Shown in pieces: positions 2,108 through 24,976 of a stretch of DNA of 64,000 nucleotides. Position numbers and translations under genes: made by a program. The number at the start of each line of letters is the position of its first letter. Within the stretch, counting starts at the first letter, position 1. A model generated the notes under the pieces. It did not search any database, had not been told where the DNA came from, and was given only the letters and a program-made list of their open reading frames with translations. The stretch lies in assembly GCA_030432295.1 (NCBI GenBank), contig JAUIHI010000004.1, positions 1 to 64,000 on the forward strand, given 5' to 3'. Origin of the DNA: Anaerolineae bacterium. GTDB lineage: Bacteria; Chloroflexota; Anaerolineae; Caldilineales; Caldilineaceae.

Positions 2108-2134
2108 CGGGTCATTATCCTTACTATGTATTTC

Positions 2135-2302
2135 GTAGGTCGGATTGCCAATCCGACCGCCGTCGGACTACTTGTGAATTAAGAAAATAACCGGGCAACT
2201 GTAGGGGCGCTGCTTGCTGCGCCCGCAGGTGTCGGGCGCAGCAAGCAGCGCCCCTACGTCATTACCCGATCAATTTTTTAATGTCCAACCAGTCCGACCT
2301 AC
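2135..2302. repeat. Palindromic repeat cluster between cas4 and cas1
   Basis: The centre is a perfect 25-bp inverted repeat (2201-2225 and 2233-2257, 7-nt loop) starting GTAGGGGCGC. A 9-bp inverted repeat (2138-2146/2150-2158, GGTCGGATT) lies to its left. The cluster is bounded by GTAGGTCGGA at 2135-2144 and its exact inverse TCCGACCTAC at 2293-2302. Together this resembles a REP/MITE-like insertion in the cas operon. On RNA the 25-bp stem could attenuate or stabilise the transcript. No ORF inside. Confidence 0.75.
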
Positions 2303-2310
2303 ATTCGTTG

Positions 2311-2889
2311 TCACGGACTCAGAACTCTCGTTTCCTCAGGCAGACAGATGTCATGCAGACTGCATCCCCGGCAGCGGCTCTTCTGATCTGTGTGGGGCAG
2401 AATTTCGCCGATGGCTACGGCCCGCTGCATGGCGTCGATCAACGCCCCGGTTTCGGCCCGTAGGTTTTCGTCGAAGATCACATCCACCCGTCGCCGGCTG
2501 CCAAAGTAGAAGATAGCGCCCTGCTCAATGGAATGGCCGGTCATCTCCTCCAGGCAGAGGGCCTGGGCGCAGAGTTGGGCCTGGTCATTCATCCAGCGTC
2601 CCTGCTTGCCCTGCTTGTATTCCACAGGCACAAAGCGCCCGTCCGGGTGTTCCTCCAACAGGTCGCAGAAGCCAGTGATCTGCCAGCGTTCGCTAAAAAC
2701 ATAGACCCGGCGGTGGATGCGCACGCCATCGCCCTGGCTCTCATAGCCCGGTGTGTGCGCCCGTTCGTGGTTTTGCACACCCCGCAGCACGTGGGCGTTG
2801 ACCTCCATTTCGCTCTGGGCATACATATACCAGAAGCGGCGGGGGCAATAGGCGTATTGATTGATGTAGGAAAGTGGCAATGGGTCCAT
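2311..2889 (-). CDS. cas4: CRISPR-associated exonuclease Cas4
   Basis: 192 aa from the ATG at 2889, whose A overlaps the cas6 TAA stop (TAATG), so translation is coupled. RecB-like nuclease motifs: Asp76 (TGFCDLLEE), Glu90-x-Lys92 (VEYKQGKQG) and a Gln-rich helix after it. Four iron-sulfur cysteines: Cys15 (YCPRRFWY), Cys173, Cys176 and Cys182 (RCRGCSLHDIC). Cas4 trims prespacers and helps select PAM-flanked ends before Cas1-Cas2 integration. A longer open frame extends upstream but lies inside cas6, so the shorter start is preferred. Confidence 0.95.
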   Translation of the reverse strand: MDPLPLSYINQYAYCPRRFWYMYAQSEMEVNAHVLRGVQNHERAHTPGYESQGDGVRIHRRVYVFSERWQITGFCDLLEEHPDGRFVPVEYKQGKQGRWMNDQAQLCAQALCLEEMTGHSIEQGAIFYFGSRRRVDVIFDENLRAETGALIDAMQRAVAIGEILPHTDQKSRCRGCSLHDICLPEETRVLSP

Positions 2890-3719
2890 TATTCTACCAG
2901 CCTCATCTGTCCCAATCCGTGGGTGGTCTTGTAGCCGATGCCGGTGAAGAAGGCCAGGTGGAGCAGACAATTGAGATGGGCCGCCCGGGCTGCGTCGCTC
3001 TTGTCCAGCAGACGCCAGGCCACTTTGCCCACGCCGCCGGTATAGCGCTGGCCCCGGTAGGCAAAACCTTCGGTCTGCCATTTCCACACCCGCTCGATGA
3101 TGACATTGCGCTCCACCCACTCCTCAAAATCCCGCCCCCAATTTTCGCCGGTCCATTTGTCCCAGCGCTTGCCTACCCCGTTGATAGCCATGCGCGGCAA
3201 AGGAAAGATTTCCATGCGTCGTCGTCGGTTGTCCGCATCACCCCAGCGCACCGCAGTGGGGCTTTCAAACTCCAACACCCAGCGCTCGGCGGGGGGCAAC
3301 TGGCGCAGTTCGTCCAGGGTGGTATAGCCGGCCCAGGGATGGCTGGCCGGGTTGCCCAGGGCATCGGTGATGGCAAAGTGGACATCGCCCAGGCGGATGG
3401 TGGGCCGGGTGCTGGTGAGCAGGTGGGTGGTGAAGGCGGCGAACAACGCTGGCTCCAGCAGGCAGACCCGCAGCCAGCCTGGCTGTCCTGGGCTTACCCG
3501 GATTTTGCCGTCCTGGGGACTCTGCCAGTAGCCGTAGAGGGGGGAGAGGCTGAAGGCGCTGCGCTCGTCCGCGTTGTGCATCCGGGCCGAGAGGTCCGGG
3601 TCCACGGCCTGGATGGCGGCGTAGAAGGCGGCGTGGCCCAGCTCGCCCACGCTGCCGGGCAGGGTTCCGGCATTCTGCGGGGCCAGGTTGACGACGAGGG
3701 CGTGGAGGGTATGGGGCAT
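2889..3719 (-). CDS. cas6: CRISPR pre-crRNA processing endonuclease Cas6
   Basis: 276 aa from the ATG at 3719, preceded by AAAGGA at about 11 nt; an in-frame start 10 codons upstream is possible. The RAMP C-terminal glycine-rich loop is visible (FFTGIGYKTTHGLGQMRL), and the protein ends with the duplicated ferredoxin-like fold typical of Cas6. It cuts the repeat RNA to leave the ATTGAAAC handle. It is the first gene of the cas6-cas4-cas1-cas2 block, separated from cas3 by the opposite-strand toxin-antitoxin pair, so this block probably needs its own promoter. Confidence 0.92.
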   Translation of the reverse strand: MPHTLHALVVNLAPQNAGTLPGSVGELGHAAFYAAIQAVDPDLSARMHNADERSAFSLSPLYGYWQSPQDGKIRVSPGQPGWLRVCLLEPALFAAFTTHLLTSTRPTIRLGDVHFAITDALGNPASHPWAGYTTLDELRQLPPAERWVLEFESPTAVRWGDADNRRRRMEIFPLPRMAINGVGKRWDKWTGENWGRDFEEWVERNVIIERVWKWQTEGFAYRGQRYTGGVGKVAWRLLDKSDAARAAHLNCLLHLAFFTGIGYKTTHGLGQMRLVE

Positions 3720-3734
3720 GGGTAGCAATTTCCT

Positions 3735-3762
3735 TTGCATGCAATTCAAGAGATGGTATACT
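3735..3762 (+). promoter_or_regulatory. Predicted promoter of the tumA-tumE pair
   Basis: TTGCAT (3735-3740), 16-bp spacer and TATACT (3757-3762) on the plus strand, about 65 bp upstream of the tumA start. It overlaps the region that would hold the divergent cas6 promoter, so the two transcription units could interfere. Confidence 0.5.
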
Positions 3763-3829
3763 TTCGTTAATATGGCTTTGGGAGAGAGTACACCCGCGCT
3801 ACTCCCCCTCTGGTTTCAGGAGAATCGGT

Positions 3830-4120
3830 ATGGTTACACTGACATTGACATCGCAGCGCAACGATTCCCTGCGCCCGCTGGTGGAAGCAGCCCTGGACAA
3901 CGAAGCGGCGGTGTTAGAAGTCGGAATCCGCAAGACCCAGTGGCGTCTCCACGAATTTGAGAGCAAATACGAGCTTGCCACGGACGAATTTCTGGCAAAA
4001 TTCCGGGCAGGAGAGATCGAAGAGACGCTGGAACTCGACGAATGGATCGGCGAGAGCCGGATGTTGCACCATTTGCAGGAAAAGCTGGACACTTTGCGGA
4101 GTCTCCACATTGCGGATTGA
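3830..4120 (+). CDS. Putative antitoxin (TumA-position protein)
   Basis: 96 aa, rich in Glu/Leu and predicted mostly helical (for example LVEAALDNEAAVLEVGIRK). ATG preceded by AGGAG at 7 nt. No DNA-binding motif is evident. Its identification rests on context: it sits directly upstream of and overlaps a DUF6516/TumE-type gene, the usual arrangement for the antitoxin partner of that family. It lies on the strand opposite to the cas genes, between cas6 and cas3. Confidence 0.6.
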   Translation: MVTLTLTSQRNDSLRPLVEAALDNEAAVLEVGIRKTQWRLHEFESKYELATDEFLAKFRAGEIEETLELDEWIGESRMLHHLQEKLDTLRSLHIAD

Positions 4121-4493
4121 CGCCTATTTCGCACAAATTCGGCAGGCGATAGATAACTGCTCCTTCGTTCGTAATGCGTCCATCCTCACGGACGACCGTG
4201 GAACATTTGAAGGATTTGTCCGCGGTGATCTGGTATTGAGTGACGGCTCTCGACTCCACTGGCGTGAATTTGTCAACACAGAATTCGGGCTGCACCAGAT
4301 CATGTACAGCTTTCAATACATGGACGACCAGGGCAACCTGATTTTTCGTTATGACAACACAGGCCATCACGCCAACGTCTCTACCTTTCCTCATCACAAA
4401 CACGAAGGCAGCATGAGGAAGATCGTTGCCTCCGCCCCGCCCAGTCTGGCCGACGTGCTGGCAGAGATTGGGCGGGTGATGGGGGCGGCCTAA
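4110..4493 (+). CDS. TumE/DUF6516-family toxin
   Basis: 127 aa from TTG at 4110, with GGAG 8 nt upstream; it overlaps the antitoxin stop by 11 nt, indicating coupling. Family features: an N-terminal DAYFAQI-type start, FVRGDLVLSDGSRLHWREFV, a YSFQYMDDQGNLIFRYDN core and the histidine-rich FPHHKHEGS near the C-terminus. TumE proteins are toxin components of two-gene modules; the biochemical target is not established from sequence. Placement inside a cas locus, in reverse orientation, suggests an addiction or guard role, which is inference. Confidence 0.75.
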   Translation: MRIDAYFAQIRQAIDNCSFVRNASILTDDRGTFEGFVRGDLVLSDGSRLHWREFVNTEFGLHQIMYSFQYMDDQGNLIFRYDNTGHHANVSTFPHHKHEGSMRKIVASAPPSLADVLAEIGRVMGAA

Positions 4494-4532
4494 AAGTAAC
4501 GCAAGACTATAGGCCAAGCCCGTCGAAGTGTG

Positions 4533-6860
4533 TCAGAGAATGATAGCGTCGTCATTGACTTGCGCTTGTTGGAATGCCCAGGCCATCAACGGCTCCAAAA
4601 GCAACGCATTCGTTCCCAGAATCACCTCAAACTCCTTTTCTTCGCCGGGCAAATCAACCAGTAATTTACGGCTGTAAATTGCCCGATAGCGGATTTGTGC
4701 ACGAAGCACCCCGAAAAGCCTTTCTGGGACAAGCAGAGCGAGAACGTACTGGCTGCGAACTGCGTCACGGATCTCTGGATATAGGGGTTCGTCGGTACGC
4801 AATTGGATACCGTTGAGCGCTACCGGCTTCCCAGCAGAAAAACAGCGGATGAAATCAGATTCCGGCCACCCTCCGTCCAGAAGCCGGGGTGGTCGCCAGC
4901 GCAAAGCAACCCGCAACCGTTCAGTTCGATGTTGGTGCAAACGAACACAGATGCTTTCCCTGGTCGGTGTCTTGCCCGTCGCCTGTTGAAACTGAGTACC
5001 CTCCAAGAGAGTGAACTGATAGTTTTCCACCAAATGAATCAGATCGTACTGGGTGGTTTCTGCGCCGGACAAAAGTCGATCCGGGTCGTATACCCAGGCG
5101 TTCGGACTGCTGAAGCTGTCTCGAAAGCTGAATTGGGCTTGGATTTTGGCCCTTTCCATTTCACAGTAGATGCGAATTCCATCAACATACTGTGGCCCTA
5201 AGAACTCGTTTAGTCTTGGCCTGATATCGTTGGCTTCCGGTTTTCCCCCTGTCAGCCATTCAAAGTAATCAGCAATGACTTCCGGCAACTTAGATCGGCT
5301 GTAGGAATCTTTGGGATCGCGTAGCCAGCCTGCAATAGCCTCCTGCTTTTTCCAATGAGCCTCAAAACTCCACAAAGGCCGTTTGCTGTTCGGCGCATAG
5401 ACAGAGAGAATCGTTTCAAAGAGTCCTTCGATTCTCTGCCTACCCTCTGCAGAAAGCATCTTCTTTGCGTTGTAGAGCGGAAAGACATTCTCTTCCAATC
5501 CTCCCCGGCTCACGTAAGCCTGAAAATCTTCCTTTTCAGGTAGGGCATTCGTGCGTTTGAGCAGGGCCAAAAATTCAGCGCGGCTGAATGTCTGCCCGTT
5601 TGCTGTCTGTAGTGCGCCAATAGACTCCTGGCCGACCAGCGCGATGGCTTCGGATGGCGTGTTTGTCTCTATTTTTCCCAACACCCGCCCGGCCCGGCCC
5701 ATACGCTGGATCAACTCATCCCGGAAGCGCGCTTCAAAGACAACAAAGTCCAGATTTTGGCGTGCCTTCGCTTGTTTTTTAAAATTGTAGCCGATGTCCA
5801 CCGTCGGCGTCGCCAAAATCAGCGGCTTGAACTGATCTTTTCGGCGTTCTTCAATGGGCTGTGCGCCGGTAATCCGTCCCATCGACTCCGAGGCAATCGA
5901 GGCGCGCAGAGACGCGTGGGCCTGATTGATACGCCAAAGCGCATTGGCGATCAACGCTCCGTCTTTTCCACTGCGCAACCGTTCACCCACGCTTTTGCCC
6001 TGGCTCTCTGCATATTTTTCGATAGTCTCATCGGCAAAACCCAGGGTGAGCGGAGCCAACACAGGCGTTGTCGGCAAGCTGGATGCTTCTGCCGGTTCGT
6101 TCTCCGGGCTAACCAGTACCCAGCCGTCAGCGCCAAAGAGTCGATCCAAGTACGTGCGTGTCCCTTCATCCGGCGTAGCCGAGAGCAGACAAAAGCGCCG
6201 ACCCTCTCCAAAGTATCCCCAGTCTTTGGAGAGAGCCATGAAAAAGAGGAAGTTTGCCAGTTGTTTGCTGTCGTAATAGTGAAACTCATCGATCACAATG
6301 TAACGAAATCTGGTCACGACGGCATGGAAGAGATTGCGCTGATCGAAGGAAGAGAATTGCCAGAAGAGCGCGTAGTAGAACAGGTCTGGATTTGTCACCA
6401 GAATCAGCGGCAGTTTGTCGTGATCATTCGGATCGATGCCCAATTCTGCGTGAAATGCCTGTCCATTGCTCAGAATTAAATCAACAAAGCGCTCGCCGTT
6501 ACGGTCTACCCGGTCATTGGCGTGCAGAGATTTCAACACCGCTGCATTGATCTCCACCGGACGAAACTTCAAGTTGTTCTCTGCAACGAATGCGCAGATA
6601 TCTTCATAATGCTGGTGGAGCAGTTCGTTTGTGGGCGCAATGAAAAGCACGTTATCCCGCGGCCTGCCCGTCAGCGTAAAGAGATGGAGCAGACTGGCGA
6701 CGGTCTTGCCGGTTCCTGTGTTATAGGCGTTCATCACCAATGGCGCATTCTTCAACGCTTCCACAGTCCGTATCTGATGGTAAAGGGGTGGCGGGCTGAG
6801 ATTGAATGGATTCTCAGCCGCCACCTTTTCGCTCTGGCCTGTCAGATGAATCTCAACCAT
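4533..6860 (-). CDS. cas3: Type I-D CRISPR helicase Cas3 (Cas3', no HD domain)
   Basis: 775 aa. Superfamily 2 helicase motifs are in order: Walker A GTGKT at 49-53, DEFH box at 191-194, SATP at 227-230 and an arginine finger motif QRMGRAGRVLG in the C-terminal helicase domain. No N-terminal HD nuclease is present; in subtype I-D the HD domain is on Cas10d instead. It unwinds and translocates target DNA after interference-complex binding. The ATG overlaps the csc1 stop by 8 nt, so the two are translationally coupled. It is last of the cas10d-csc2-csc1-cas3 effector block. Confidence 0.94.
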   Translation of the reverse strand: MVEIHLTGQSEKVAAENPFNLSPPPLYHQIRTVEALKNAPLVMNAYNTGTGKTVASLLHLFTLTGRPRDNVLFIAPTNELLHQHYEDICAFVAENNLKFRPVEINAAVLKSLHANDRVDRNGERFVDLILSNGQAFHAELGIDPNDHDKLPLILVTNPDLFYYALFWQFSSFDQRNLFHAVVTRFRYIVIDEFHYYDSKQLANFLFFMALSKDWGYFGEGRRFCLLSATPDEGTRTYLDRLFGADGWVLVSPENEPAEASSLPTTPVLAPLTLGFADETIEKYAESQGKSVGERLRSGKDGALIANALWRINQAHASLRASIASESMGRITGAQPIEERRKDQFKPLILATPTVDIGYNFKKQAKARQNLDFVVFEARFRDELIQRMGRAGRVLGKIETNTPSEAIALVGQESIGALQTANGQTFSRAEFLALLKRTNALPEKEDFQAYVSRGGLEENVFPLYNAKKMLSAEGRQRIEGLFETILSVYAPNSKRPLWSFEAHWKKQEAIAGWLRDPKDSYSRSKLPEVIADYFEWLTGGKPEANDIRPRLNEFLGPQYVDGIRIYCEMERAKIQAQFSFRDSFSSPNAWVYDPDRLLSGAETTQYDLIHLVENYQFTLLEGTQFQQATGKTPTRESICVRLHQHRTERLRVALRWRPPRLLDGGWPESDFIRCFSAGKPVALNGIQLRTDEPLYPEIRDAVRSQYVLALLVPERLFGVLRAQIRYRAIYSRKLLVDLPGEEKEFEVILGTNALLLEPLMAWAFQQAQVNDDAIIL

Positions 6861-7623
6861 TTGCGCTCAATCCTTCCACACCAAAACGCATCCCAACAGG
6901 CAGCAGTGTTCCGTCTTTCAACCGATAGAACGAACCACTGATCACCGCATTGCGCAGTAAAGGCACCGGATGAACGCTCAACAGATCGAAAGTCTGAAGG
7001 ACTGCACCTGCTGGCAGGTCCAGGGGATTGATAAGTTGGCGCAGGTGGGCAGATTCCTCTCTGATAGTTTGGAATGTAACCTTTTCCGCCGTCAATCTGG
7101 CTTTGCTCATCCATTTTCCCAGGCGGATATAGGAAGGCAATTGCAGGGCATCGGAAGAAAAGAGATGGAAAATGGCACGGTTGCCAATTCCCAACAACTT
7201 GATCGAGCCGATCTGCGGTCGATTCATTGTGCGGACTTTACGGCTTGCTCCGGTTGCGCGTTCGCGCAGATACCAGGCGCTCCCGCGCTGCTCTGCATCC
7301 CATCCGTCGGGTTTGGTGATCAGTGCATTATTGCCCATCGCAAACCAGTAACTATCGGGCATCGCATTAAACTGTTCAATGGCAAAACGGGGCTGTCCCA
7401 CAATGGAGGCAGGCGTGAGATAGACTCCCTGTTCGTTGAGCGCTGTCAAATGCTCGGCATAGTGGATCTGGCCCCGGTTGTGGTAAGGCGAGGCTACCAA
7501 TCCCAGCGCATAGCACAGCGCATAGTTGCCAATAAACGGTTCGGTCTGATAGAAATTTCCCACCTCCCTGCTGGAGAAGAATGTCCTCTCCAGCAGGGTC
7601 AGTTCGCAGCGATAAATCTGCAT
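6853..7623 (-). CDS. csc1: Type I-D Cas5 subunit Csc1
   Basis: 256 aa. Recognised as Csc1 from its start (MQIYRCELTLLERTFFSSRE), the IGNYALCYALGL segment and its position between csc2 and the I-D cas3. Csc1 (Cas5d-type RAMP) caps the 5' handle of the crRNA in the effector complex. A strong AAAGGAGGC site lies directly before the ATG, and the csc2 stop is only 10 nt upstream. No break or frameshift is seen. Confidence 0.92.
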   Translation of the reverse strand: MQIYRCELTLLERTFFSSREVGNFYQTEPFIGNYALCYALGLVASPYHNRGQIHYAEHLTALNEQGVYLTPASIVGQPRFAIEQFNAMPDSYWFAMGNNALITKPDGWDAEQRGSAWYLRERATGASRKVRTMNRPQIGSIKLLGIGNRAIFHLFSSDALQLPSYIRLGKWMSKARLTAEKVTFQTIREESAHLRQLINPLDLPAGAVLQTFDLLSVHPVPLLRNAVISGSFYRLKDGTLLPVGMRFGVEGLSANG

Positions 7624-7633
7624 ACCGCCTCCT

Positions 7634-8587
7634 TTAGCGCTTGTAACCTGCCTGGGCAGTTGTCAGCACTGCTTTGATAGCCTCTTCGTCGCTGTACAGT
7701 ATCTGCAATTCCTCGTGCAAGTGGGCCAGATCAGCGGCTTCCATCACAATTACTTTGCCCATCACCCGCTGTCGAAGGCTCTCCATCGCCTGGGCCACCG
7801 CGTTTTCCACATCCCCATCGGTCAAAGGCAGGGTTGGATCGCCGTTGTTTATGGCTTTCAGCCGATCCCAGACCGTTTGGGTCAATTCCAGATTGCTGTA
7901 TAGCTCACAATCGCTGAAACAGATGGCAAGCAGACGATTGGTCACTTTGCCAACCCGGCTGGACACGGCCCCGTAGCGACTGCTGCGCAGAATGTTGCCC
8001 AGCACATACGTCAATTCGCCCGGGGTCACATCTTTCAGCGTCTCGATATCCAGGAAATGGGTTTCTGGGCGCACATATTCATCCGTGCCGATGCTTGTGG
8101 ACGCTTTGCCGGTTTCTGGATGGCGCATTGTTCCGTCTTCAAAGGGCGCATTGAATTGCCGTTTGCCAACTACCTGCGTTGCAGGCAGAATCGAAAACGC
8201 ATCGTCAGTGATAACCCGGGACTTCTGGGCACCCCCGCCACCGACGGCGTAGCCGTAGACCATCGAATCAATGCTGTCCGGCTCCGGATTACCTTCATTT
8301 AGACCCGCATTGGCGGCGAGAAGTTCAGCCCGCCGCAATAACTCCCGCCCGGTGCGTCGTTCAACGGCTGTCTGTTTACGCTTGCTGATGACAACCCGGG
8401 GAATCACCGTTTGGTCCACTTCGCCGGCATGGACAAACTCGCGATTCAGCGGCTCCCCACTGCCTTCTGTGCGGAAGATCGCCTCACCTTCCACTTTGCG
8501 AGTGAGGATCAGGCTCACATAATAGCCGCGGGGATAGTTGCTGTAGGCTTCGGGCAGATACTTGGCATATTTCTGTAGAGATTGCAT
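7634..8587 (-). CDS. csc2: Type I-D Cas7 backbone subunit Csc2
   Basis: 317 aa. Starts MQSLQKYAKYLPEAY with the RAMP fold typical of Csc2; the KRKQTAVERRTGRELLRRAE segment and the long ETHFLDIETLKDVTPGELTY region match the subtype. Csc2 polymerises along the crRNA spacer. The ribosome binding site AGGAGGATATGCC-ATG is the strongest in the operon, consistent with the need for several Csc2 copies per complex. Neighbours: cas10d 33 nt upstream, csc1 downstream. Confidence 0.93.
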   Translation of the reverse strand: MQSLQKYAKYLPEAYSNYPRGYYVSLILTRKVEGEAIFRTEGSGEPLNREFVHAGEVDQTVIPRVVISKRKQTAVERRTGRELLRRAELLAANAGLNEGNPEPDSIDSMVYGYAVGGGGAQKSRVITDDAFSILPATQVVGKRQFNAPFEDGTMRHPETGKASTSIGTDEYVRPETHFLDIETLKDVTPGELTYVLGNILRSSRYGAVSSRVGKVTNRLLAICFSDCELYSNLELTQTVWDRLKAINNGDPTLPLTDGDVENAVAQAMESLRQRVMGKVIVMEAADLAHLHEELQILYSDEEAIKAVLTTAQAGYKR

Positions 8588-8620
8588 GGCATATCCTCCT
8601 GAGTAATGGTATGAAAATGG

Positions 8621-11440
8621 TTAGTCGGTTGATTCAGCTTCGGCAGATTTTTCTGCAGAACGCAGAGCCAGCAATTCCCGCACATGGAAAAGAAAGGCCG
8701 AACGGATCAGCTTTTCGTCATTGAGAAGCCGCTGACGGTTGTTCTGGTAGACTTTGCCGATTAGATCGTCAAAAAACGCATCCACAAAAGCGTTTACCTT
8801 GACTTGCGTAGTACGGCCAATCATCTTTGCATCCCGGATACGTCCCAGATATTCATAAATATCCTGGGCCGTGGCCGCACGCAAGGTGCCGTCATCAATG
8901 GGTGCCTCCTTCTGCTGGATTTTTGTAAAACATTCGTTTAGGGGCGTCATCAAAGAATTCTTCTCTAGTGATTTACCTTTGAGATTCCCTTCCCAAGCCA
9001 ACTGTGCAAGCTCTTCAATGGTTTCGATCACCTGTCTTCCTCCATTCGTGTAGGCTAAATAGTTCAACGAATCAACCATCTGTCCGGCGGCGCGGATGAG
9101 TGTCCACTCCGCCGACTTCACCTTTTTATCATCCCGAATACGTTGTAGCAAAAGTCGTTCCGCTGTATAGAAAATGCCAAGCGGTCCGTCATTCAGACTG
9201 CTGGCAAGAGCAATTACTTCGGTTACTTTGCTGCTGGGGTTAAAAACCTGTCGATAGATTCCGTAAAGCGCTTTCAATTCTCCTTCCAAAGTAATCTGGA
9301 TGCCACTTTGTTGTGTGCCTGTGAGTTCTTGGTAGGTATAGCCGTTTTGACGTAACAATCCTTGCAACGATAAGGGAATTTCGTCGATCAGCAGATCGGC
9401 AAATTCATCTGGCCCGACAATCGGCGTAGCCGAATGAGTCAACACCACTCGACCACCCACGTATCGGTGCATAGCATAGGCGCAGGTAAATGCGTACCAA
9501 AATTGCTCGGTATCATTCCGCCCTGGGGCGTTCAAAGGCCAAATAAGCAGATTGCCTAGGAGTTCTGGAGCGCCGGGTAAGGGCAAGCCATTGCTGTTCG
9601 ACACCGAAACCGGCAGTTCGATTGGCTGACTGGGATCGAAAACGCTGCGTAGGCTGTCATCAGTCTTGATAAAAAGGGCGGAGACATCCTGCTCGGCCAG
9701 TTCACGCACTGTTCGACGCCACGAGTCAATATAGGCAGGACTAAAAAAGGCGTAGGGATAGATGTGCAAGTAGTAGGTGCTGGCCTTGAACGCAGGCGGG
9801 TAGTTGAGTTTTTCCAACAAAAACTGGGCTTTGGTAATTGGATCAATGCGTTTGACCGGGTCACCTGGCCCAGCAGCCAGACGGTTACTGAATTGCTGGA
9901 CTTTGATCGTTTTGGGTACATCATCAGAACGCCATAGCTCTGTGTCAAAATCCGTGCCGCCGTAGGCCGACTGTTTATGGTTTTGCTGAACATATCGTTG
10001 TAGATAAGCTGTGAATGTGGCTATCTGCGGCAACTGAAAAGAGAACTGGATGTTATTTTGGGCATACTGCTGAAAGACTGCTTGCCACGGACTATCGATC
10101 TCCATCTCTCCAAGGAGATTCTTGCCATCTTGTTCGATTTTTCTGATTACAGATTCATAACTCAGTGAGATTGCCCCCGCCAACACATAAGATCTGTCGT
10201 AGTTAAGGTCAAAGTAATCATAGAATGCTTGTTGTTCCGATGGCATGTCCAATATGGCGTACAGGTGCATCCATGGATCAGGAATCTCCTTTTTGAAGTG
10301 TTTGCTCAAAAAGATATAATAGGTGCGCACCAACTCGCCCAACTGTAATAGTGAAAGGCTACGCGGAATCAGGTCTGATTCCGCCAGTCGCTGGCGGACT
10401 GCCTCTGCAACTGGACTACTGTCACCAGTAATGCTCTGTTCGGCGCGTTCCCTGGCACGGCTTTCCATATTATCTAACGCATTGTACTTTTTACCCTGAA
10501 TGATCGTATCCACCGCTTGCCACATACGCGAGAACGATATACCAAGTTCCAGGCATTTGTTATCAATCTTAATACCTTGATTGGTCGCTTTGATGAAACT
10601 GGAAAATTTACCTCGTGTTTGATCTTCCAGCCAATTGGCAATACTTGTACCAATGGCGCTATAGTCCTCTTCAGCGACGCCGATTGACTCCCCACGTTTG
10701 ACTAGATAGACAACACCATCTGGGTAATAGAGCAAGGGCCAAGCCCCTTTTTCCTGTTGCAAATACTCCGCTACGCGGTTGTGAATGACATTTGTCAAAA
10801 TGCCACGCTGTTCGGCCACGACGTGATGGACAAGCTCGTACTGTGTAGCGCTGAATTCGTTGAGGTGATCCAGAAAACGGCGTTTGTGCTTGCGCTCATG
10901 CAGGCTATGGGAGAGATCAACCACATCCAACGCTCTCACCAGCAGAACCAACCCCTCAATGCGTTCCTGCCCCAAACGATAGTCCCCGCCGAGTATGAGC
11001 AATTCACCGGCCACATGCCCGTGATCGCTGTGGGCACGCATCAGTGTCACGATGTCCCGCAGATAGTCCCGCCATTGGGGAAAGAAATCATCGGCTCCAA
11101 TTCGTTGTAATTCCTCTGCAACGGCATCCGGGTTTGCCAGTTTATTGTAGCCTCCCAAGTGCTGAAATTCCGGCACTTTGTTTAAGTCGTGGACACTTAA
11201 CACAAGCATTAGAACCCGTCGCTCTACCTCAGAAAGTCCCACTAAAGAGGAGAGACGTTCGAGAGTAAAGACCAAGTCAAGTACGTGGGCATAGAGCGGT
11301 TGCCCCTCCTTGCCCCCCCACTGGATAATCCGCCGATAGCGCCCCAACCCCTTGTTGGCGATGTTATCGATGTAGTCCCCTAGCACATCGCCCGGTCTTC
11401 CGGCCAGCTTTAGCATTAATTCGTCAAGTGTCGTGCTCAT
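8621..11440 (-). CDS. cas10d: Type I-D large subunit Cas10d/Csc3 with HD nuclease domain
   Basis: 939 aa, normal for Cas10d. The N-terminal HD phosphohydrolase domain shows His52, His84-Asp85 (LSVHDLNK) and a His cluster at 137-142 (RAHSDHGH). No GGDD cyclase motif is visible, as expected for I-D. Cas10d is the large subunit and carries the nuclease that acts with Cas3'. In I-D systems the small subunit Cas11d can be made by internal initiation near the 3' end of this gene; candidate starts are TTG at 9277 (AAGGAG immediately upstream) and ATG at 9079, both in frame. Start ATG with GAGGA at 8 nt. Confidence 0.95.
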   Translation of the reverse strand: MSTTLDELMLKLAGRPGDVLGDYIDNIANKGLGRYRRIIQWGGKEGQPLYAHVLDLVFTLERLSSLVGLSEVERRVLMLVLSVHDLNKVPEFQHLGGYNKLANPDAVAEELQRIGADDFFPQWRDYLRDIVTLMRAHSDHGHVAGELLILGGDYRLGQERIEGLVLLVRALDVVDLSHSLHERKHKRRFLDHLNEFSATQYELVHHVVAEQRGILTNVIHNRVAEYLQQEKGAWPLLYYPDGVVYLVKRGESIGVAEEDYSAIGTSIANWLEDQTRGKFSSFIKATNQGIKIDNKCLELGISFSRMWQAVDTIIQGKKYNALDNMESRARERAEQSITGDSSPVAEAVRQRLAESDLIPRSLSLLQLGELVRTYYIFLSKHFKKEIPDPWMHLYAILDMPSEQQAFYDYFDLNYDRSYVLAGAISLSYESVIRKIEQDGKNLLGEMEIDSPWQAVFQQYAQNNIQFSFQLPQIATFTAYLQRYVQQNHKQSAYGGTDFDTELWRSDDVPKTIKVQQFSNRLAAGPGDPVKRIDPITKAQFLLEKLNYPPAFKASTYYLHIYPYAFFSPAYIDSWRRTVRELAEQDVSALFIKTDDSLRSVFDPSQPIELPVSVSNSNGLPLPGAPELLGNLLIWPLNAPGRNDTEQFWYAFTCAYAMHRYVGGRVVLTHSATPIVGPDEFADLLIDEIPLSLQGLLRQNGYTYQELTGTQQSGIQITLEGELKALYGIYRQVFNPSSKVTEVIALASSLNDGPLGIFYTAERLLLQRIRDDKKVKSAEWTLIRAAGQMVDSLNYLAYTNGGRQVIETIEELAQLAWEGNLKGKSLEKNSLMTPLNECFTKIQQKEAPIDDGTLRAATAQDIYEYLGRIRDAKMIGRTTQVKVNAFVDAFFDDLIGKVYQNNRQRLLNDEKLIRSAFLFHVRELLALRSAEKSAEAESTD

Positions 11441-11560: not shown

Positions 11561-12580
11561 TTATTCTTCCTCTGCGTACACCCGTCCCAACCCCGCCACC
11601 AGTGCTTCCATCTCCCGCCGGGCATTCGTGTCCCCCACCACCCGACAACTCGGCCCATAGCCGAGCAGTTGGCGACAAGCCATAAAGAGATTGTCTGTGG
11701 TGGCCGTCACCCGCACCCAGCCCTCATCGTCTGGCTGGTGAATCTCCATATCGTCAAAATGACGGCTTACCTGGCCCAACCGGGCGATCTCCGGGGCCAG
11801 CAGATATTCCAGTTTGTGGTGAGGGTGTTTGGGAGGCGTGGGTGGCAGTCGTTCTGGTAGCACTTGAATCCCCTCGGCCAGAATGCGCCCGATTCGGTAA
11901 CGCATCCACTGCCGTGCCTTCCATATTCCATGAGGGCCATCCACCTCGCGCAGGAAGGCATCCAAATAGAAGTGGCCCCGCGCTGAATCGAAGTAGCGGT
12001 TCCACGGTTCCACCGTATGGACACGGGGAATCTCGTCGGCCTGGTTGGGGGAACGGTAGGCGAAGCGCAATAGCTGACGACCTACGGCCCTGCCGATGGC
12101 ATTCTCCACCGCTGGTGAGACTTCATCGCTGTCTTTGCTGCGCAGATGAAGCTGCAGCCGATTACGACGATAGACAAGACTGCCCTGCTGGTTGTCTGGC
12201 AAAAGCTCCTGAATGCGATGCAACAGGGCCTGCACCGCATCGGACTGAGGTGCGCCAGGGCCAAAAGTCTCGACCAGAAATGCCAGCGTCTCCAGTTCTT
12301 CCTCGCTCAGTCCCAGCGGACGGAACTCTCCAAAGCCTTGAAACTCGTAGACAGCCTGCTTCCGGTTATAGCGAGGTCTTTCCACGCCGAGCCGTGTATA
12401 CAGAAAACTCAGGTCTTCTTCAAAACGACGGCGGCCTGCGTCGAGTGTGTCACCATCATAGGGGCCACCGCCTACATCGACCGATACCAAATCGATCAGT
12501 GTTTCTCGGCCAGCAGGTATGCGTTGAAGATGGCGAAGTATGCTCAACGCCCGGATAATGCGCTCGTCAACAGTTGCCAT
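11561..12580 (-). CDS. WYL-domain transcriptional regulator of the cas locus
   Basis: 339 aa. N-terminal segment ERIIRALSILRHLQRIPAG resembles a winged-helix start. The middle LRFAYRSPNQ and following VEPWNRYFDSARGHFYLDAF correspond to the WYL ligand-binding domain, and the C-terminal DNLFMACRQLLGYGPSCRVVG to the WCX extension. WYL proteins control many CRISPR and phage-defence loci, sensing nucleic acid ligands. It is the first minus-strand gene before cas10d and likely regulates it through the 11505-11528 repeat (inference). Confidence 0.85.
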   Translation of the reverse strand: MATVDERIIRALSILRHLQRIPAGRETLIDLVSVDVGGGPYDGDTLDAGRRRFEEDLSFLYTRLGVERPRYNRKQAVYEFQGFGEFRPLGLSEEELETLAFLVETFGPGAPQSDAVQALLHRIQELLPDNQQGSLVYRRNRLQLHLRSKDSDEVSPAVENAIGRAVGRQLLRFAYRSPNQADEIPRVHTVEPWNRYFDSARGHFYLDAFLREVDGPHGIWKARQWMRYRIGRILAEGIQVLPERLPPTPPKHPHHKLEYLLAPEIARLGQVSRHFDDMEIHQPDDEGWVRVTATTDNLFMACRQLLGYGPSCRVVGDTNARREMEALVAGLGRVYAEEE

Positions 12581-12718
12581 GCTATTTTTCTCGTTGAGGT
12601 AGGGTAGTAATTCCAGGCAATCCGAATTGATGTGCTTCTAAAGTGGCTCTCCAAAAGCATACTATACATCCATAGCTTACGCAATCTAACGGAAAACAAG
12701 CTGCGCGCTTCCCAACTA

Positions 12719-12970
12719 CTGATCGTTACGTCCGAACCACTGGGCGGCTCGTCCCGACGACTGGGCGGCTCGTCCGAAAGGCTGGTCATCACGTCTGAGA
12801 GATTAGGCGTCTCGTCCCAACCACTGGTCATCACATCTGAGGCACTGGTCGTCTTGCCCCAATTACTGGTCATCACGTCCGAAGTACCGGTCATCACGTC
12901 CGAAAGGCTGGTCGCCTCCCCGCGGCTGCTGGTCATCACGTGTGAAGCACTGATCATCGCCTCACACATG
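12719..12970. repeat. Tandem array of twelve 21-bp units
   Basis: Twelve consecutive units of exactly 21 bp; most begin CTGGTCATCACGTCCGAA or CTGGGCGGCTCGTC with divergence between copies. Because 21 is a multiple of 3, both strands stay open through it. The plus frame (12632-13024, 130 aa) reads heptads such as LVITSER; the minus frame (12544-13059) reads SDVMTS-type heptads. I could not decide that either is translated: neither has a convincing ribosome binding site, and the minus frame overlaps the WYL gene start. The rest of 12581-13185 shows no gene. Confidence 0.85.
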
Positions 12971-13185
12971 CAGAGAAGTATACATCCGGCCCTGAAAGTG
13001 TTTAACGCCAAGGAAAAAATATAGTAGATTACGCACAATCTACTATATTTTGCTATCAAAACCCGTGCTAACGTGTACCCAATCGTAATTGCGATTGCCG
13101 GTATCTAACGTCAGTACGATTGTGCTTGTAGGCCGGGGGTGATTGCAACAGTTCCAGCCCAGCACCAACCCGAAAGGAAATTCCC

Positions 13186-13833
13186 ATGTCATCTCATTCG
13201 ATTGCCAACCGTCTGGAATCTGCCCGCCTGGCCCTGACCAATGCGTTGGCCGAGAACGAACTCCGCAGTGAGTTGGCCCCCTTCGGCTACGACGAGACTC
13301 GCCTGCAGCAGGGGCAGAGTCTCTATGAGAATGCACTGGCTGTCTGGCAGAGCCAGCAACAGGGGCAGAGCCGCCGTCGGGCTGCCGCGGCGGCCTACAA
13401 GCGGGCTGATGTGACAGCCCGCCGCGCCTATATGCGTGGTGTCAGGCTATGCCGCACCCTCTACCGGGACGACCCCGTCACCTACCGTGCCCTGGGTCTG
13501 GCCGGAGTCCGCAAGAAGGGCTTTGCAGCCAAAGTAGCCCAAATGCGCCTCTTCTACACAACCGCGCTGGGCAACCCGGAGATACTTACGACCCTGGCCG
13601 GTTTTGGCTTCAGCGAAAGTCAATTACAGGCGGACCTTGCTCTGGTGGCGGCCCTGGAATCTGCCCGATCCCAACGGGAGGTGGAGAGCGGCGCTGTCCA
13701 GGATGCCACCCAGAGCAAAGCCCAGGCCATCACCGCCCTGGAACGCTGGATGCGCGAATTTTTCACCATTGCCCGCCTGGCCCTGGAGGAGAACCCCCAA
13801 CGGTTGGAGATGTTGGGGCTGGCCGTGGGGTGA
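13186..13833 (+). CDS. Unrecognised helical protein
   Basis: 215 aa, not recognised. The ATG has a good AAAGGAA site. Composition is Ala/Arg/Gln/Leu-rich and almost wholly helical, with a basic central stretch (RRRAAAAAYKRADVTARRAYMRGVRLCRTLY) of which the arginines are notable. There is no signal peptide or membrane segment. Two similar halves, each with an NELRSELAPFGYDE- or NPEILTTLAGFGFSE-type turn, suggest an internal duplication. Monocistronic, pointing away from the CRISPR locus. Confidence 0.75.
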   Translation: MSSHSIANRLESARLALTNALAENELRSELAPFGYDETRLQQGQSLYENALAVWQSQQQGQSRRRAAAAAYKRADVTARRAYMRGVRLCRTLYRDDPVTYRALGLAGVRKKGFAAKVAQMRLFYTTALGNPEILTTLAGFGFSESQLQADLALVAALESARSQREVESGAVQDATQSKAQAITALERWMREFFTIARLALEENPQRLEMLGLAVG

Positions 13834-13880
13834 AATCAGGAGTTTGACTTTTTCTACTGGTCAAGGGGGTGCTGAAATTT

Positions 13881-13952
13881 AACGCAGAGGCGCAAGGATG
13901 GAAGATGCAAAGCTGTTCTCTGCATCTCTCCGTCCTTGCGCCTCTTTGCGTT
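13881..13952. repeat. Long imperfect inverted repeat
   Basis: Arms AACGCAGAGGCGCAAGGATG and CGTCCTTGCGCCTCTTTGCGTT pair with a few mismatches around a short loop. A related unpaired copy lies near 25,280-25,350. This is a dispersed intergenic element located between two convergent genes and may also act as a bidirectional terminator. The remaining bases of 13834-14126 show nothing else. Confidence 0.7.
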
Positions 13953-14126
13953 GAAAATCCATTCCACTATCTCATTGGCTGTTGTAAAAGTTTAACGAAA
14001 GAAAGGGTGCCCAGATTTGTGATCTGCACACCCTTCGTTGTCTCTGTATTCCTTTGTCCTCATTTATCGAAAATCGGACAGGGGCGCACTTTCTACTTCC
14101 CATCCCCCAGTCCCCAGTCTCCTCCT

Positions 14127-20012: not shown

Positions 20013-20082
20013 TGTAGGGGGACACAAAGATTGAGACTGGGGACATAAACAATGAGACTGAGTGACACAAAGATTGAGACTG
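20013..20082 (+). mobile_element. Left end of the TniABQ transposon with three direct repeats
   Basis: Two identical 19-bp copies GACACAAAGATTGAGACTG (20021-20039, 20064-20082) flank a diverged copy (20042-20060, GACATAAACAATGAGACTG), spaced 21-22 bp. TGT at 20013-20015 is a plausible terminus. Multiple transposase-binding repeats at the end next to the transposase gene are typical of Tn7/Tn5053-type elements. Inverted copies were not seen after tniQ. The rest of 20083-20404 contains no gene. Confidence 0.7.
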
Positions 20083-20404
20083 ACGTACTTTCTATCATGT
20101 GTTTTTTAGGACTTCCCTATGATACATTGCAAGCCGATCCTGCTGGCAGAGCCGCTCCCCCTCTACCCGCTTCGCTTTCCAATCCTTGTAAGAAGTTTCC
20201 TCTTCACTCAGGAAGTTTGCCCAGGGATTTGAGAAGCTACATGTCGATGGTATGAGATAAGCAGAAGTTATTCGTGTGCCTGGTCTACAAGGTGCATAAG
20301 ATGAGGTTCTCAGGGAATAGAAATTCATCAATTAGAACATTTGTTCTGAAGGAGTGCGAGAGTTATACTTCTAAATGTACAAATAGATAAGGCATGAAGT
20401 TCGA

Positions 20405-22417
20405 ATGAAGTTCGAGGAGCATATGACTACTAACCGAATCTCCACGGGGCAAGAATTCGAATGGCAACAGCGGCGATATAAGGTAATCCGGCTGCTTCCC
20501 GATAATAAAGTGAACATCGAGGATATTCATACCAGTGCCATTAGTCTGGTTACTCAATCTGACCTGCTCAATGCCTTTTCGCACGCCGAACTTTCCTTCA
20601 AGGATAGAGGCCATGACGCGGTTCGTTCGTCAGTTGTGAACGGCAAGCCCCTATCGCTAGATGACTATCCTGCCAATTGGGTTGAAACAGCAAAATGGCG
20701 ATTCCAGGTAATTGAGCCTCTACTGTCTCGCGAGCGATCACGTGCAGACGTGAAGCGTCGGGTAGACGAGATCGGTAAGATTTTCCCCTCGCGAGAAACC
20801 AGTGTGGCATCTGTTTATCGCTGGATTAAACGCTATGAAAGCAGTGATGGAGATTTTCTTAGCCTCATTCCGGACAGCGGTAATTCTGGGGGGAAAGGCG
20901 AACTGCGAATTGGTGCGATTGTAAATACAGTCATCGAAAACACAATTAACGACATGCTCTTTACTCGTGAAAGAATCACGGCCCATGCAATATGGTTAGA
21001 GGTATGTCGACGAATTGACGAAGAGAACAAGTATCGCCAGGTGGATGATTTGCTTAAGTTTCCTTCGTATAAAACCGTTCTTCGAAGAATTCAAGCGGTC
21101 GAGATATACAAGAAGACGATCGGCACCCGTGGAAAACGCACTGCAAACAAGCTGTTTCAGCAGTACAACGAGTCAAACCACCCAGATACACCTCTTGAGC
21201 GTGTTGAAATTGACCATACTGTTGCTGATATCATCGTTGTTGATGACGAGGGGTTAGTTTTAGGCCGGCCAACTCTTACATTTTGTATCGATGCTGCAAC
21301 ACGATATCCACTGGGTTATTATCTGAGCTTTGAACCACCAAGTTCCTATGCCGTGATGGAGTGTCTATACCACGCGATTCTTCCTAAGAATGCAAAAGAA
21401 GAGTACAAAACGGAAAACGAGTGGCTTGCGTATGGAGTACCGGCGAAACTGGTTACCGATCACGGTAAAGAGTTCATGGCCTTAGCAGAATCTTGTGCAC
21501 TTCTTGGAATTGAGCTTGAGCACAATACCCCCCGAACTCCAGAAATGAAGGCAATTATTGAGCGTATGTTCAGCACGCTAAACACCTCTCTCTTTCACAC
21601 AATTCCAGGTACAACTTTTTCAAATCCAGGCCAACGCGATAGTAAAGACTACGACAGTGCGAAACAAGCAACTCTTACCCTTAGAGAACTTGAGGAAGTC
21701 TTGGTAATTACACTGATAGATTACTATGCGCAATCCCCTCATCGTGGACTTGGAACTACACCGGCCAACGCATGGCAAGCGGCCATGGATAGCGGTTTTT
21801 CTCCTCGACTTCCGGCAGATGCTTCAACCCTACATATCCTTCTGGGTTGCACTATACAACGTACCATTCAGCATTACGGAATTGAGTTTGAAGGACTCAG
21901 GTACAACACACCCACCCTAGGGATACTCAGAGCTAAATTGCTCGAGGATAAGTCCCAAAAAAGCTTTCGCCGGAGTCCACCCGTGAAGATGAAGTATCAC
22001 CCGGGAAATATTAGCCGGATCTGGGTACTTGATCCGTATGACATGGAGTACATAGAGGTTGTAGCATTGGCCCAGGAGTATACACATAACCTTAGCCTAT
22101 GGCAGCACCGAGTCATAAGGAAGGAAGCACGTTACGAACAGCAGGATACAGTTGATATAGCTGCTCTTGGCCGAGCAAAAAAGCGAATTCAAGATTTAGT
22201 CGACAACTCACAAAAGAAAAAGCGTAGTGCAACCAGTTCCAAGGCTGTTGCGCGCTGGGACAGCAAAAAAGAATTAGAAGCAAACACAAGCGAAGATATT
22301 AATAGCAATGATTATAGCGTGGCACCAGAGTTTGTCACTAACTATATTGAAAATTTTGCGGAAGAATTGGACGTCGAACCTAACGCTCTTCCAAGGAGCC
22401 GGCGGAACTCTGCTTAG
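20405..22417 (+). CDS. tniA: TniA/TnsB-type DDE transposase
   Basis: 670 aa. An N-terminal helix-turn-helix region (SRETSVASVYRWIKRYES, 129-146) is followed by the RNase H-like integrase core with Asp270 (VEIDHT), Asp352 (VTDHGKEF) and Glu386 (AIIERMF), a D-D-33-E spacing. A beta-barrel and basic C-terminal tail follow, which in TnsB contacts TniB/TnsC. It joins transposon ends to target DNA. Start at 20405 or at the in-frame ATG 20423 cannot be decided. Base composition is visibly AT-richer than the flanks, supporting transfer. Confidence 0.93.
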   Translation: MKFEEHMTTNRISTGQEFEWQQRRYKVIRLLPDNKVNIEDIHTSAISLVTQSDLLNAFSHAELSFKDRGHDAVRSSVVNGKPLSLDDYPANWVETAKWRFQVIEPLLSRERSRADVKRRVDEIGKIFPSRETSVASVYRWIKRYESSDGDFLSLIPDSGNSGGKGELRIGAIVNTVIENTINDMLFTRERITAHAIWLEVCRRIDEENKYRQVDDLLKFPSYKTVLRRIQAVEIYKKTIGTRGKRTANKLFQQYNESNHPDTPLERVEIDHTVADIIVVDDEGLVLGRPTLTFCIDAATRYPLGYYLSFEPPSSYAVMECLYHAILPKNAKEEYKTENEWLAYGVPAKLVTDHGKEFMALAESCALLGIELEHNTPRTPEMKAIIERMFSTLNTSLFHTIPGTTFSNPGQRDSKDYDSAKQATLTLRELEEVLVITLIDYYAQSPHRGLGTTPANAWQAAMDSGFSPRLPADASTLHILLGCTIQRTIQHYGIEFEGLRYNTPTLGILRAKLLEDKSQKSFRRSPPVKMKYHPGNISRIWVLDPYDMEYIEVVALAQEYTHNLSLWQHRVIRKEARYEQQDTVDIAALGRAKKRIQDLVDNSQKKKRSATSSKAVARWDSKKELEANTSEDINSNDYSVAPEFVTNYIENFAEELDVEPNALPRSRRNSA

Positions 22418-22434
22418 CCATACAGGAGAAACAA

Positions 22435-23451
22435 GTGAACGAAAAAAGTGACATCCTGACACAGATCCAATCAATTGCTTCGGTGTTAATACGCACCCGC
22501 CGATTCAACGAATTAGAGGCTCTGATACGTGAAGGTCAGGCGCTCACAATAGTCGGCGCAGAACCACACTGTATCGCTCTAGAGGGACAAACAGGAGTCG
22601 GTAAGACAACACTGCTCAAGAGTTATGCAAATAAGTTCCCGGCAGAACAATCACAATTAGGTCTGATTTGGCCCGTTTTCTATGTGCTTACACCATCACC
22701 AGTCACTGTCAAAGCCATGGTATCAAGCATGCTTGAGCAACTGGGTGATCCCGCTCCATATCGAGGAACACTGCCCCATTTGACTTCACGACTTATCAAT
22801 TTCCTCATTCGCTGTGAGGTTAAGTTGGTTATCCTTGACGATATTCAACATATCATTGATGTCGACAGAGATAGAATCGTATATTCCGTGTCTGACTGGC
22901 TGAAGTACATCATCAAGGAAAGTGGTGTGGCGTTTGTAATTGTTGGTATCACAGGTAAGGTATCGCGGATACTGGATGCGAACTCACAATTATCTAGGCT
23001 TTTCGCGTTTCGAGAAGAGTTACGCGCATTCCACTGGAGACCAGAGATTCAGGATGATTCTGAAACCCTTGATTATGTGAGTTTTGTGCTAAGCGTTGAA
23101 AAGGAGCTTAACCGACCCTTTAGCGACCAAATAACGAGGACGGAGTTACTCAAACGGTTACACTATGCGACTGGCGGTGTTATCGCCAATTTGATGAATT
23201 TACTGCGATATGCGGTCTACATTGCCATCAAAGACAACTCGGATCAAATTACTTTGGCAATGCTGGAGTACGCCTTTAATAGACGTCTAAGCGCACACAT
23301 GAAAGGACGGAGTAACCCGTTCGCTGCCTCAGTGGGTACCACCTTTGTTGCTGAAGGTTACAACTACACGAATTCACCTGAGAGCACAGGTCGAAGAGTA
23401 AAGGGACGCCAAGAACGTCCCGCCTCTCTATCGAAGACACTCACAAGCTAG
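22435..23451 (+). CDS. tniB: TniB/TnsC-type AAA+ ATPase
   Basis: 338 aa from GTG at 22435 with AGGAG 7 nt upstream. Walker A GQTGVGKT at 51-58 and Walker B LVILDDIQHI around 131-140. TniB/TnsC polymerises on target DNA, links the target selector (TniQ) to the transposase and gives target immunity. The start is 17 nt after the tniA stop, so the three genes form an operon. The C-terminal tail (RRVKGRQERPAS) is basic. Confidence 0.92.
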   Translation: MNEKSDILTQIQSIASVLIRTRRFNELEALIREGQALTIVGAEPHCIALEGQTGVGKTTLLKSYANKFPAEQSQLGLIWPVFYVLTPSPVTVKAMVSSMLEQLGDPAPYRGTLPHLTSRLINFLIRCEVKLVILDDIQHIIDVDRDRIVYSVSDWLKYIIKESGVAFVIVGITGKVSRILDANSQLSRLFAFREELRAFHWRPEIQDDSETLDYVSFVLSVEKELNRPFSDQITRTELLKRLHYATGGVIANLMNLLRYAVYIAIKDNSDQITLAMLEYAFNRRLSAHMKGRSNPFAASVGTTFVAEGYNYTNSPESTGRRVKGRQERPASLSKTLTS

Positions 23452-23464
23452 AAGGGACACCTGT

Positions 23465-24976
23465 TTGGGATCATCACGATGCCTACTCATTCGTTCTCCA
23501 TTGCTACCTGGTGAGTCGTTGGTCTCATATATTACCAGGTTAACAGAACTCAATAGATATGACTCCAATTCAGTTATAGAATCTCTTTGCGAGGGTATCC
23601 CACGCAAAGATAGCATCCTGCTGCCAAAACGATCTGAAACATTTCAACGCATGGAGGAGCTATTTCGAGTTGATCAACTCGAAATAGCTCAGGCGACACC
23701 CCATGTGTTTGCCACTGTCCTAGTACCTGGAGACTCGTCTGCGCATAATAATCCCGCTAACATAGTGACTCTATCGAACGGCGCATCCGTTCACTTGCTA
23801 CCGGCAGACATGGCGGTGCGCCACATGTTTACAGGTGGTGTGAGCCAATTCTGCTCAAAATGTTTGCACGAATCCCGCTATCACCGACTCATCTGGTCGA
23901 TACCAACCGTTGTTTTATGCATTCAACATCATGAACTCTTACGTACCAGATGCCCCACCTGCGGACGATTGACGAAAATAGTCGATGTTGCTCGTGCGAA
24001 ATGTACGGCGTGTGCCGGTCGCCTAGATTTGTCCAAGTCTACTGATTATCCGATTGGTTTTCATCATGAAAGTCAATCCCAACTTCAGGGTTGGCTAACA
24101 GGTACCCTTACTAGCAACCTGTACTATCATCCTCCCAGCCAGCCAGCGAATCTGCTATATAGTCTCTATGAAGATGTTCGCCTCATTATAGCACTATCCC
24201 TCAAGTCGTATGGTTTGGAAAAACACATCGGAGATGTTCGAGTGCAGTCCAATACTATGTCCTTGGCAAATGAATTACTGAAGAAGATGGATGCCCGGAA
24301 ACGGTTCTTCTTGCACATTAGAGCCTTTCAAGCCTTGGCAAACTGGCCAAATGGTTTTGAAAAGTTTCTCTCGCAGTACCCGATTGAAAGAGATAAAACC
24401 ATTGTTTACCAAACTGGTGATCCCCGGGTTCGCGGAAACTTTGCACCACTACTCGCTTTCCAACAAAACTCGAAAAACTATGGTTTCGTTTCTCATGCCT
24501 TTCGATCGTGGCTTGCTGTATCAAAACCAAAGTCAGCCGTTGCTCTTGAGTACACTGGTTCAGACGCTGATTCTGCCCCTTTGTCACAGCGAAAAGTTAG
24601 TGATCTTCTTGGCATTTCCTCTGCTTACGTTCCTAGCCTTATCGATGCTGGATTCCTCTGCGAATATGATAATTACGCTGATTCACGTACACAGTATATT
24701 ACTTGTGAGTCCATGAATTCATTCATGTCCTCGATCGAGAAGAAGATATCGGTTGCTGAAGTCTATTCCTATGCCATCAACGAATTGGTTAGCTTGGCCG
24801 ATGCACATGCGATGTTCATCGAAGCTGGGCTTCAGTTTGTGGATGTCATACATTATCTACTAGACAAATCTACTGTATTCTGTGTTCCTATCAATCGTCA
24901 TGGATGGAATATCCGAGATTTGCTGTGCATTGAGACCAGTTTGAGAGCATGGGTAGGCAGTAGAACCCCCAAGTGA
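23465..24976 (+). CDS. tniQ: TniQ/TnsD-type target-selection protein
   Basis: 503 aa from a TTG start with AAGGGA about 8 nt upstream. The TniQ N-terminal signature LLPGESLVSYITRLTELN is followed by zinc-finger cysteines/histidines (FCSKCLHESRYH, then CPTCGR and CTACAGR). The long C-terminal part with an HTH-like VSDLLGISSAYVPSLIDAGF resembles TnsD-length proteins rather than the short TniQ of CRISPR-associated transposons, which suggests recognition of a fixed DNA site. No tnsA homologue is present. Confidence 0.9.
   Translation: MGSSRCLLIRSPLLPGESLVSYITRLTELNRYDSNSVIESLCEGIPRKDSILLPKRSETFQRMEELFRVDQLEIAQATPHVFATVLVPGDSSAHNNPANIVTLSNGASVHLLPADMAVRHMFTGGVSQFCSKCLHESRYHRLIWSIPTVVLCIQHHELLRTRCPTCGRLTKIVDVARAKCTACAGRLDLSKSTDYPIGFHHESQSQLQGWLTGTLTSNLYYHPPSQPANLLYSLYEDVRLIIALSLKSYGLEKHIGDVRVQSNTMSLANELLKKMDARKRFFLHIRAFQALANWPNGFEKFLSQYPIERDKTIVYQTGDPRVRGNFAPLLAFQQNSKNYGFVSHAFRSWLAVSKPKSAVALEYTGSDADSAPLSQRKVSDLLGISSAYVPSLIDAGFLCEYDNYADSRTQYITCESMNSFMSSIEKKISVAEVYSYAINELVSLADAHAMFIEAGLQFVDVIHYLLDKSTVFCVPINRHGWNIRDLLCIETSLRAWVGSRTPK

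Follow-up and report, generated by a model that had tools for sequence, protein, structure and literature searches.

A 21-bp tandem array linked to PQLLE-family genes in Chloroflexota and its possible role as a phased protein-binding site

The tandem array at positions 12711 to 12962 of the window (the whole 64-kb stretch of DNA that we analysed) is linked to the PQLLE-family gene downstream of it. Arrays with the same 21-bp spacing accompany such genes elsewhere, each with a unit sequence private to its locus; they are neither coding nor RNA-structured, and array and gene are transferred together as a module. We consider it very probable that the array is a non-coding, cis-acting, phased DNA site owned by the downstream PQLLE gene. 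Our full reading, to which we assign a probability of roughly 0.5, is that it serves as a helically phased cognate protein-binding site, similar in kind to ParR-parC or Rep-iteron systems, with the PQLLE protein as its likeliest binder; taken separately, the assignment of that protein as the binder is tentative and in our judgment falls somewhat short of an even chance. The open-access literature searched yielded no paper naming "PQLLE" or describing such arrays, and no published description of the gene-array module.

The array and its gene in the window

TRF and lag analysis gave 21 bp as the sole strong period within 12711 to 12962. Identity over positions 12690 to 12980 was 0.57 at lag 21 and 0.63 at lag 42, and the lag-21 score of the array was by far the best in the whole window. 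A unit-chain (EM/Viterbi) fit returned 12 units with all 11 spacings equal to 21 bp and a score of 260, compared with 58 or less in shuffles. These analyses confirmed the exact 21-bp period described in the initial annotation, with 12 units in strict register and no indels over 252 bp. The units (consensus CCGAACCACTGGTCATCACGT, no strand assigned) were about 63% alike and, as the higher identity at lag 42 indicated, alternated with a 42-bp period between GGTCATCACGTC and GGGCGGCTCGTC. The longer span from 12632 to 13059 given in the initial annotation corresponds to the limits of two overlapping open reading frames, 12632 to 13024 on the plus strand and 12544 to 13059 on the minus strand; the heptad frames noted there, LVITSER-like on the plus strand and SDVMTS-like on the minus strand, were indeed open across the array. 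The array lies between a WCX/WYL-type regulator gene (11561 to 12580, minus strand) and a 215-aa open reading frame (13186 to 13833, plus strand). A genome-wide search found no further occurrence of the window unit in its own genome, an Rfam search gave no match inside the array, and the units had no excess of palindromes, which argues against a palindromic operator.

A spacer that is not conserved (12963 to 13027, plus strand) separates the array from a near-invariant promoter-like element, ATTACGYANAATCTACTATA, at 13028 to 13047 on the plus strand, the end of the array lying 66 bp upstream of this element. ATTACGYANAATCTACTATA is common to seven group-1 loci, with 18 of its 20 columns identical, and is probably the promoter or operator of the PQLLE gene. 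It is followed by a conserved leader (13048 to 13185, plus strand) containing AATCGTAATTGCGATTGC and the ribosome-binding site GAAAGGAA. In the window copy a near-perfect inverted repeat, AATATAGTAGATTACGCACAATCTACTATATT, extends around the promoter-like element at 13018 to 13049; relatives conserve its right half only. A second, long inverted repeat (AACGCAGAGGCGCAAGGATGGAAGATGCA...) lies directly 3′ of the gene at 13875 to 13959, and we rejected the miRNA-like Rfam matches in that region since they were far below gathering scores and the region is itself the inverted repeat.

The open reading frame at 13186 to 13833 scored 214 bits against NCBIfam model NF052641, "PQLLE family protein" (curated cut-off 80), and is a member of this uncharacterised gene family; two distant homologues scored 237 and 246 bits. 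A Pfam search with the 215-aa product gave no family. The AlphaFold2 model, made with 12 sequences (mean pLDDT 92.7, pTM 0.76), predicted an all-helical protein composed of two copies of the arrangement short helix, short helix, 56-residue helix, short helix, and the sequence is internally duplicated at an offset of 107 aa, with 23% identity compared with 7–11% at other offsets. Foldseek found no PDB or viral match to the predicted fold at E < 0.001; with Foldseek and VIA-align we recovered only generic long helical hairpins, the best VIA-align Z of 9.4 being the level expected for those. Neither Pfam nor the PDB comparison revealed a recognised DNA-binding fold, and few basic residues are conserved across PQLLE proteins.

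Period-21 arrays at other PQLLE loci

A class-wide profile search detected homologues in 19 genomes, some with five to seven copies, and those on other contigs within the same genus each had an upstream tandem array of a different unit. We examined 48 PQLLE-family loci, all of them from metagenome-assembled genomes of Chloroflexota. With a fixed detector, a period-21 array was found within 700 bp upstream of the gene at 38 of these loci. Control regions and the remaining parts of the loci, about 1.35 Mb together, gave a background of 0.012 such arrays per 700 bp (binomial P for the excess about 4e-59, with loci treated as independent). When an exact period was required, 36 genes had an array at 21 bp, one at 20 bp and none at 15–19, 22–27 or 30 bp. 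Median pairwise identity of the PQLLE proteins was 29%, and clustering at 60% identity gave 25 protein clusters, 19 of them with an array. Some of the ten loci at which no upstream array was detected were at contig ends, and some had an array elsewhere. The background matches were coding repeats (Thr-Pro linkers, coiled coil) or 7-bp minisatellites with one exception, a displaced 21-bp array that lies 1.5 kb ahead of another PQLLE gene. Where the initial annotation had envisaged 21-bp arrays of one consensus in other genomes, the period recurred, with unit sequences that differed between loci.

Across all arrays, which ranged in size from 6 to 19 units, 354 of 389 spacings (91%) were 21 bp; the others were 20 bp (21 spacings), 22 bp (13) and 23 bp (one). 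The earlier suggestion that divergence without indels reflects selection is supported, the selected feature being the spacing. Likeness between the units of an array varied from 0.96 at lag 21 (G662:C221) down to less than 0.5. A weaker sub-period of 10.5 bp appeared as peaks at lags 10/11, 31/32 and 52/53 (z = 5.4 versus column permutation), and, together with the 21-bp period, these peaks indicated that the unit represents two turns of B-DNA with traces of one-turn half-units. The unit sequence differed between loci, between syntenic orthologues and mostly between paralogues of the same genome. Unit similarity on the same strand was 0.49 for proteins at least 75% identical and 0.35–0.36 for those below 60%, and it was related to protein orthology on the same strand only (Mantel p = 0.034); this correlation may reflect cognate pairs but fits simple common descent as well.

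Comparison with relatives showed how array and gene travel. The nearest orthologue (G001:C139), with 86% protein identity, has an orthologous array of 17 units, and the block alignable with the window was 12711 to 13833 on the plus strand, that is, array, leader and gene; the flanks were unrelated. As the shared block coincides exactly with these three parts, we conclude that the module moves as one. A paralogue at 95 kb in the genome of the window was compared with its syntenic counterpart in G005:C7; the flanks were 75–91% identical and the gene 77%, whereas the arrays did not align, both nevertheless keeping about 21 bp per unit.

Interpretation and rival explanations

Since each 21-bp unit comprises two helical turns with a weaker 10.5-bp half-repeat, every unit would present the same face of the helix. 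We propose that a protein lines up on the units along this one face, which would produce an ordered nucleoprotein array beside the promoter, and that the half-sites could be read by the two tandem helical domains of the PQLLE protein; if two domains did read two half-sites, site and protein would be expected to drift together as a cognate pair. The half-unit signal showed no correlation with how alike the two protein domains are. This counts against the proposed reading, as do the absence of a recognised DNA-binding fold, the acidity of about a third of the PQLLE proteins, the scarcity of conserved basic residues and the ten loci at which no upstream array was detected. The most economical candidate for the binder is the PQLLE protein, since no other partner is conserved and every array belongs to a single gene copy. 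The outcome of such pairing could be autoregulation, or marking or bridging of the locus. The arrays combine conserved helical spacing with locus-specific sequence, as would be expected of a cognate phased operator array.

Between the two functions proposed in the initial annotation, coding or protein binding, protein binding is the class that fits best, whereas coding frames occurred at or below chance: any open frame was present in 23 of 36 arrays, compared with 28.6 expected from column permutation. Spacings of 20 or 22 bp that break a heptad frame occurred in 12 of the 36. The initial annotation had named frame-breaking indels in close relatives, together with a lack of transcription, as what would refute its proposal; in the nearest orthologue the heptad frames are broken only in degenerate 5′ units and remain open in the core, where openness is inherited and thus not decisive. 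Third codon positions were the least variable ones of the window array in both heptad frames, and the array of an own-genome paralogue has a period of 43. A heptad-repeat peptide made from one or both strands, phase-variable or not, is therefore hardly credible, even though neither frame is interrupted in the window or in the orthologue's core. Binding by the WYL regulator of the adjoining type I-D CRISPR operon, also suggested initially, is just as improbable; adjacency is all that recommends it, apart from the frequent location of PQLLE loci near defence genes, and the closest homologous array and gene, in G001:C139, have no WYL or CRISPR homology nearby. The arrays follow PQLLE genes, not WYL or CRISPR genes. 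Somewhat less remote, but still improbable, is transcription of the array into small RNAs that are guide-like or structural. TIGR-Tas systems pair 8- to 12-nt repeats and 9-nt spacers with Nop proteins (PMC12045711), and their arrays are also upstream and locus-specific, with 5–15 units and dual repeats of ~40 nt (PMC12045711); here too a locus-specific short-period array stands beside a gene for an all-helical protein, and some arrays have a 42-bp alternation. However, our arrays have a single 21-bp period and lack variable 9-nt spacers, the worst 9-column block having a mean identity of 0.52 and falling below 0.35 in just 2 of 36; several are near-perfect repeats, and no Nop domain was found in the PQLLE protein by Pfam up to E = 10. 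The structural RNA of the initial annotation fared no better, as folding showed no excess on either strand (mean z about −0.3 sense and −0.9 antisense versus dinucleotide shuffles, and about −0.1 on both strands versus column permutation).

Instead, a nucleoid or transcription factor of the host might bind the array as its phased site, or the array might act mechanically; in either case it would merely control the PQLLE gene. This would suit the position of group-1 arrays just upstream of the near-invariant promoter-like element, the 10.5-bp sub-period, which is appropriate to any protein reading one face of the DNA, and the acidity of many PQLLE proteins, whose pI values are bimodal (4.5–5.9 or 8–10.3) with about a third acidic. 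However, the difference in units between paralogues of one genome disallows a shared sequence-specific host factor, and a wedge model gave no consistent intrinsic curvature (mean z −0.4), arguing against a mechanical role; we regard this alternative as unlikely rather than far-fetched. Distinctly more unlikely is a neutral, fast-turnover minisatellite riding on a mobile PQLLE cassette. Higher-order duplications of 42, 84, 85 and 106 bp within arrays and copy numbers from 6 to 19 do resemble satellite turnover, and the loss of alignment in the array of the syntenic pair, but not in its flanks or gene, is what neutrality would give. Neutral arrays would, however, accumulate indels, and such a large majority of exact spacings is not what would result; moreover, unrelated units keep period 21 across proteins down to less than 25% identity, and other repeats of the same genomes have periods other than 21.

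If the cognate binding site that we favour is extended further, PQLLE genes and their 21-bp satellites might be mobile gene-satellite modules of a class not yet described, associated with defence islands, in which a two-domain helical protein coats or bridges a fast-evolving, helix-phased array by cognate recognition; the module would resemble a miniature bacterial centromere or an identity tag, kept from cross-talk by divergence among paralogues, and its role would differ from partition, replication and RNA guidance. We offer this as speculation that is more doubtful than not. An orphan protein family gains its first strong functional clue, a near-obligate helix-phased DNA array, and the arrays illustrate that conserved spacing is compatible with divergent sequence. 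The PQLLE loci supply about 38 naturally occurring pairs of protein and site, with several of them in the same genome, on which to test the co-divergence of DNA recognition and satellite; they also allow the question of how rapidly evolving repeats keep a constant function to be addressed in bacteria.

Known systems and genomic setting

A close functional parallel is ParMRC, in which 10- to 20-bp direct repeats are bound by a cognate ParR and the repeat sequence varies between families (PMC9426499). As there, a small protein is encoded next to a tandem direct-repeat site, here 12 × 21 bp upstream of the gene. The PQLLE protein differs from ParR in its predicted all-helical fold with long hairpins and in having no ribbon-helix-helix Pfam match; no ParM- or ParA-type partner recurs among 140 neighbours of PQLLE genes; and the gene is present in several copies per chromosome, with no match in the plasmid collection. 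Iterons of plasmid Rep and geminivirus systems are likewise phased direct repeats of ~20 bp that lie upstream and vary between relatives, and which the gene product may bind; in contrast, the PQLLE gene has no Rep Pfam match, and the window contig is 297 kb. No PQLLE homologue was found in the phages, plasmids and viral contigs searched. A CRISPR array is also a tandem array in a defence-gene-rich genome, but the 21-bp units are degenerate, do not alternate between repeat and unique spacer, and at most loci are not adjacent to cas genes. Prokaryotic satellites and minisatellites (for example, PMC6749651) share the tandem turnover and higher-order repeats, whereas here sequences that are unrelated all keep the period of 21, which goes with a single gene family.

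The 140 neighbour proteins included type IIG and type I restriction genes, ResIII helicases, and Schlafen-type and ThsB proteins. They matched 488 PADLOC models, compared with 53 for 140 control proteins, a figure that compares the two sets and does not count systems because the models are redundant. That PQLLE loci are enriched next to restriction and CRISPR genes points to a connection with genome defence or with defence-island mobility. Genes resembling REP-associated tyrosine transposases (E 1e-12 to 1e-15, below the curated cut-off) lay 36–790 bp from PQLLE genes at four loci (L153 6560–7174, L155 10363–10974, L159 4657–5289 and L161 8152–8703); they are a possible agent of module mobility. 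In the window itself, a type I-D CRISPR-Cas operon (cas1, cas4, cas3d, csc1, csc2, cas10d) occupies 1031 to 11440, accompanied at the left end by a repeat array of 74-bp period at 49 to 308. About 9 kb from this locus, three 21- to 22-bp repeats, GGGACACAAAGATTGAGACTGA, precede a trio of Mu-type transposase, TniB and TniQ genes (20019 to 24976), together forming a Tn7/Tn5053-like transposon end.

A 102-aa single-domain relative of the PQLLE protein was encoded in three genomes (L081 6893–7198, L093 1429–1734 and L098 1432–1737), where the copies were 91–94% identical and matched NF052641 at E about 1e-9, below its cut-off. Each copy was upstream of an array of the palindromic unit TACAGnnnCTGTGCG with an exact 20-bp period, located in L081 (G000:C44) at 8424–8620 and 10990–11190, where the arrays flank a GmrSD-type restriction gene, and present also in L093 and L098. 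We considered these ACAGnnnCTGT arrays as partners of the half-size homologue and rejected the idea, as they occur genus-wide without it. Many loci of the genus carry them, as does one other genus of the family, and they constitute a separate repeat family that is conserved in sequence.
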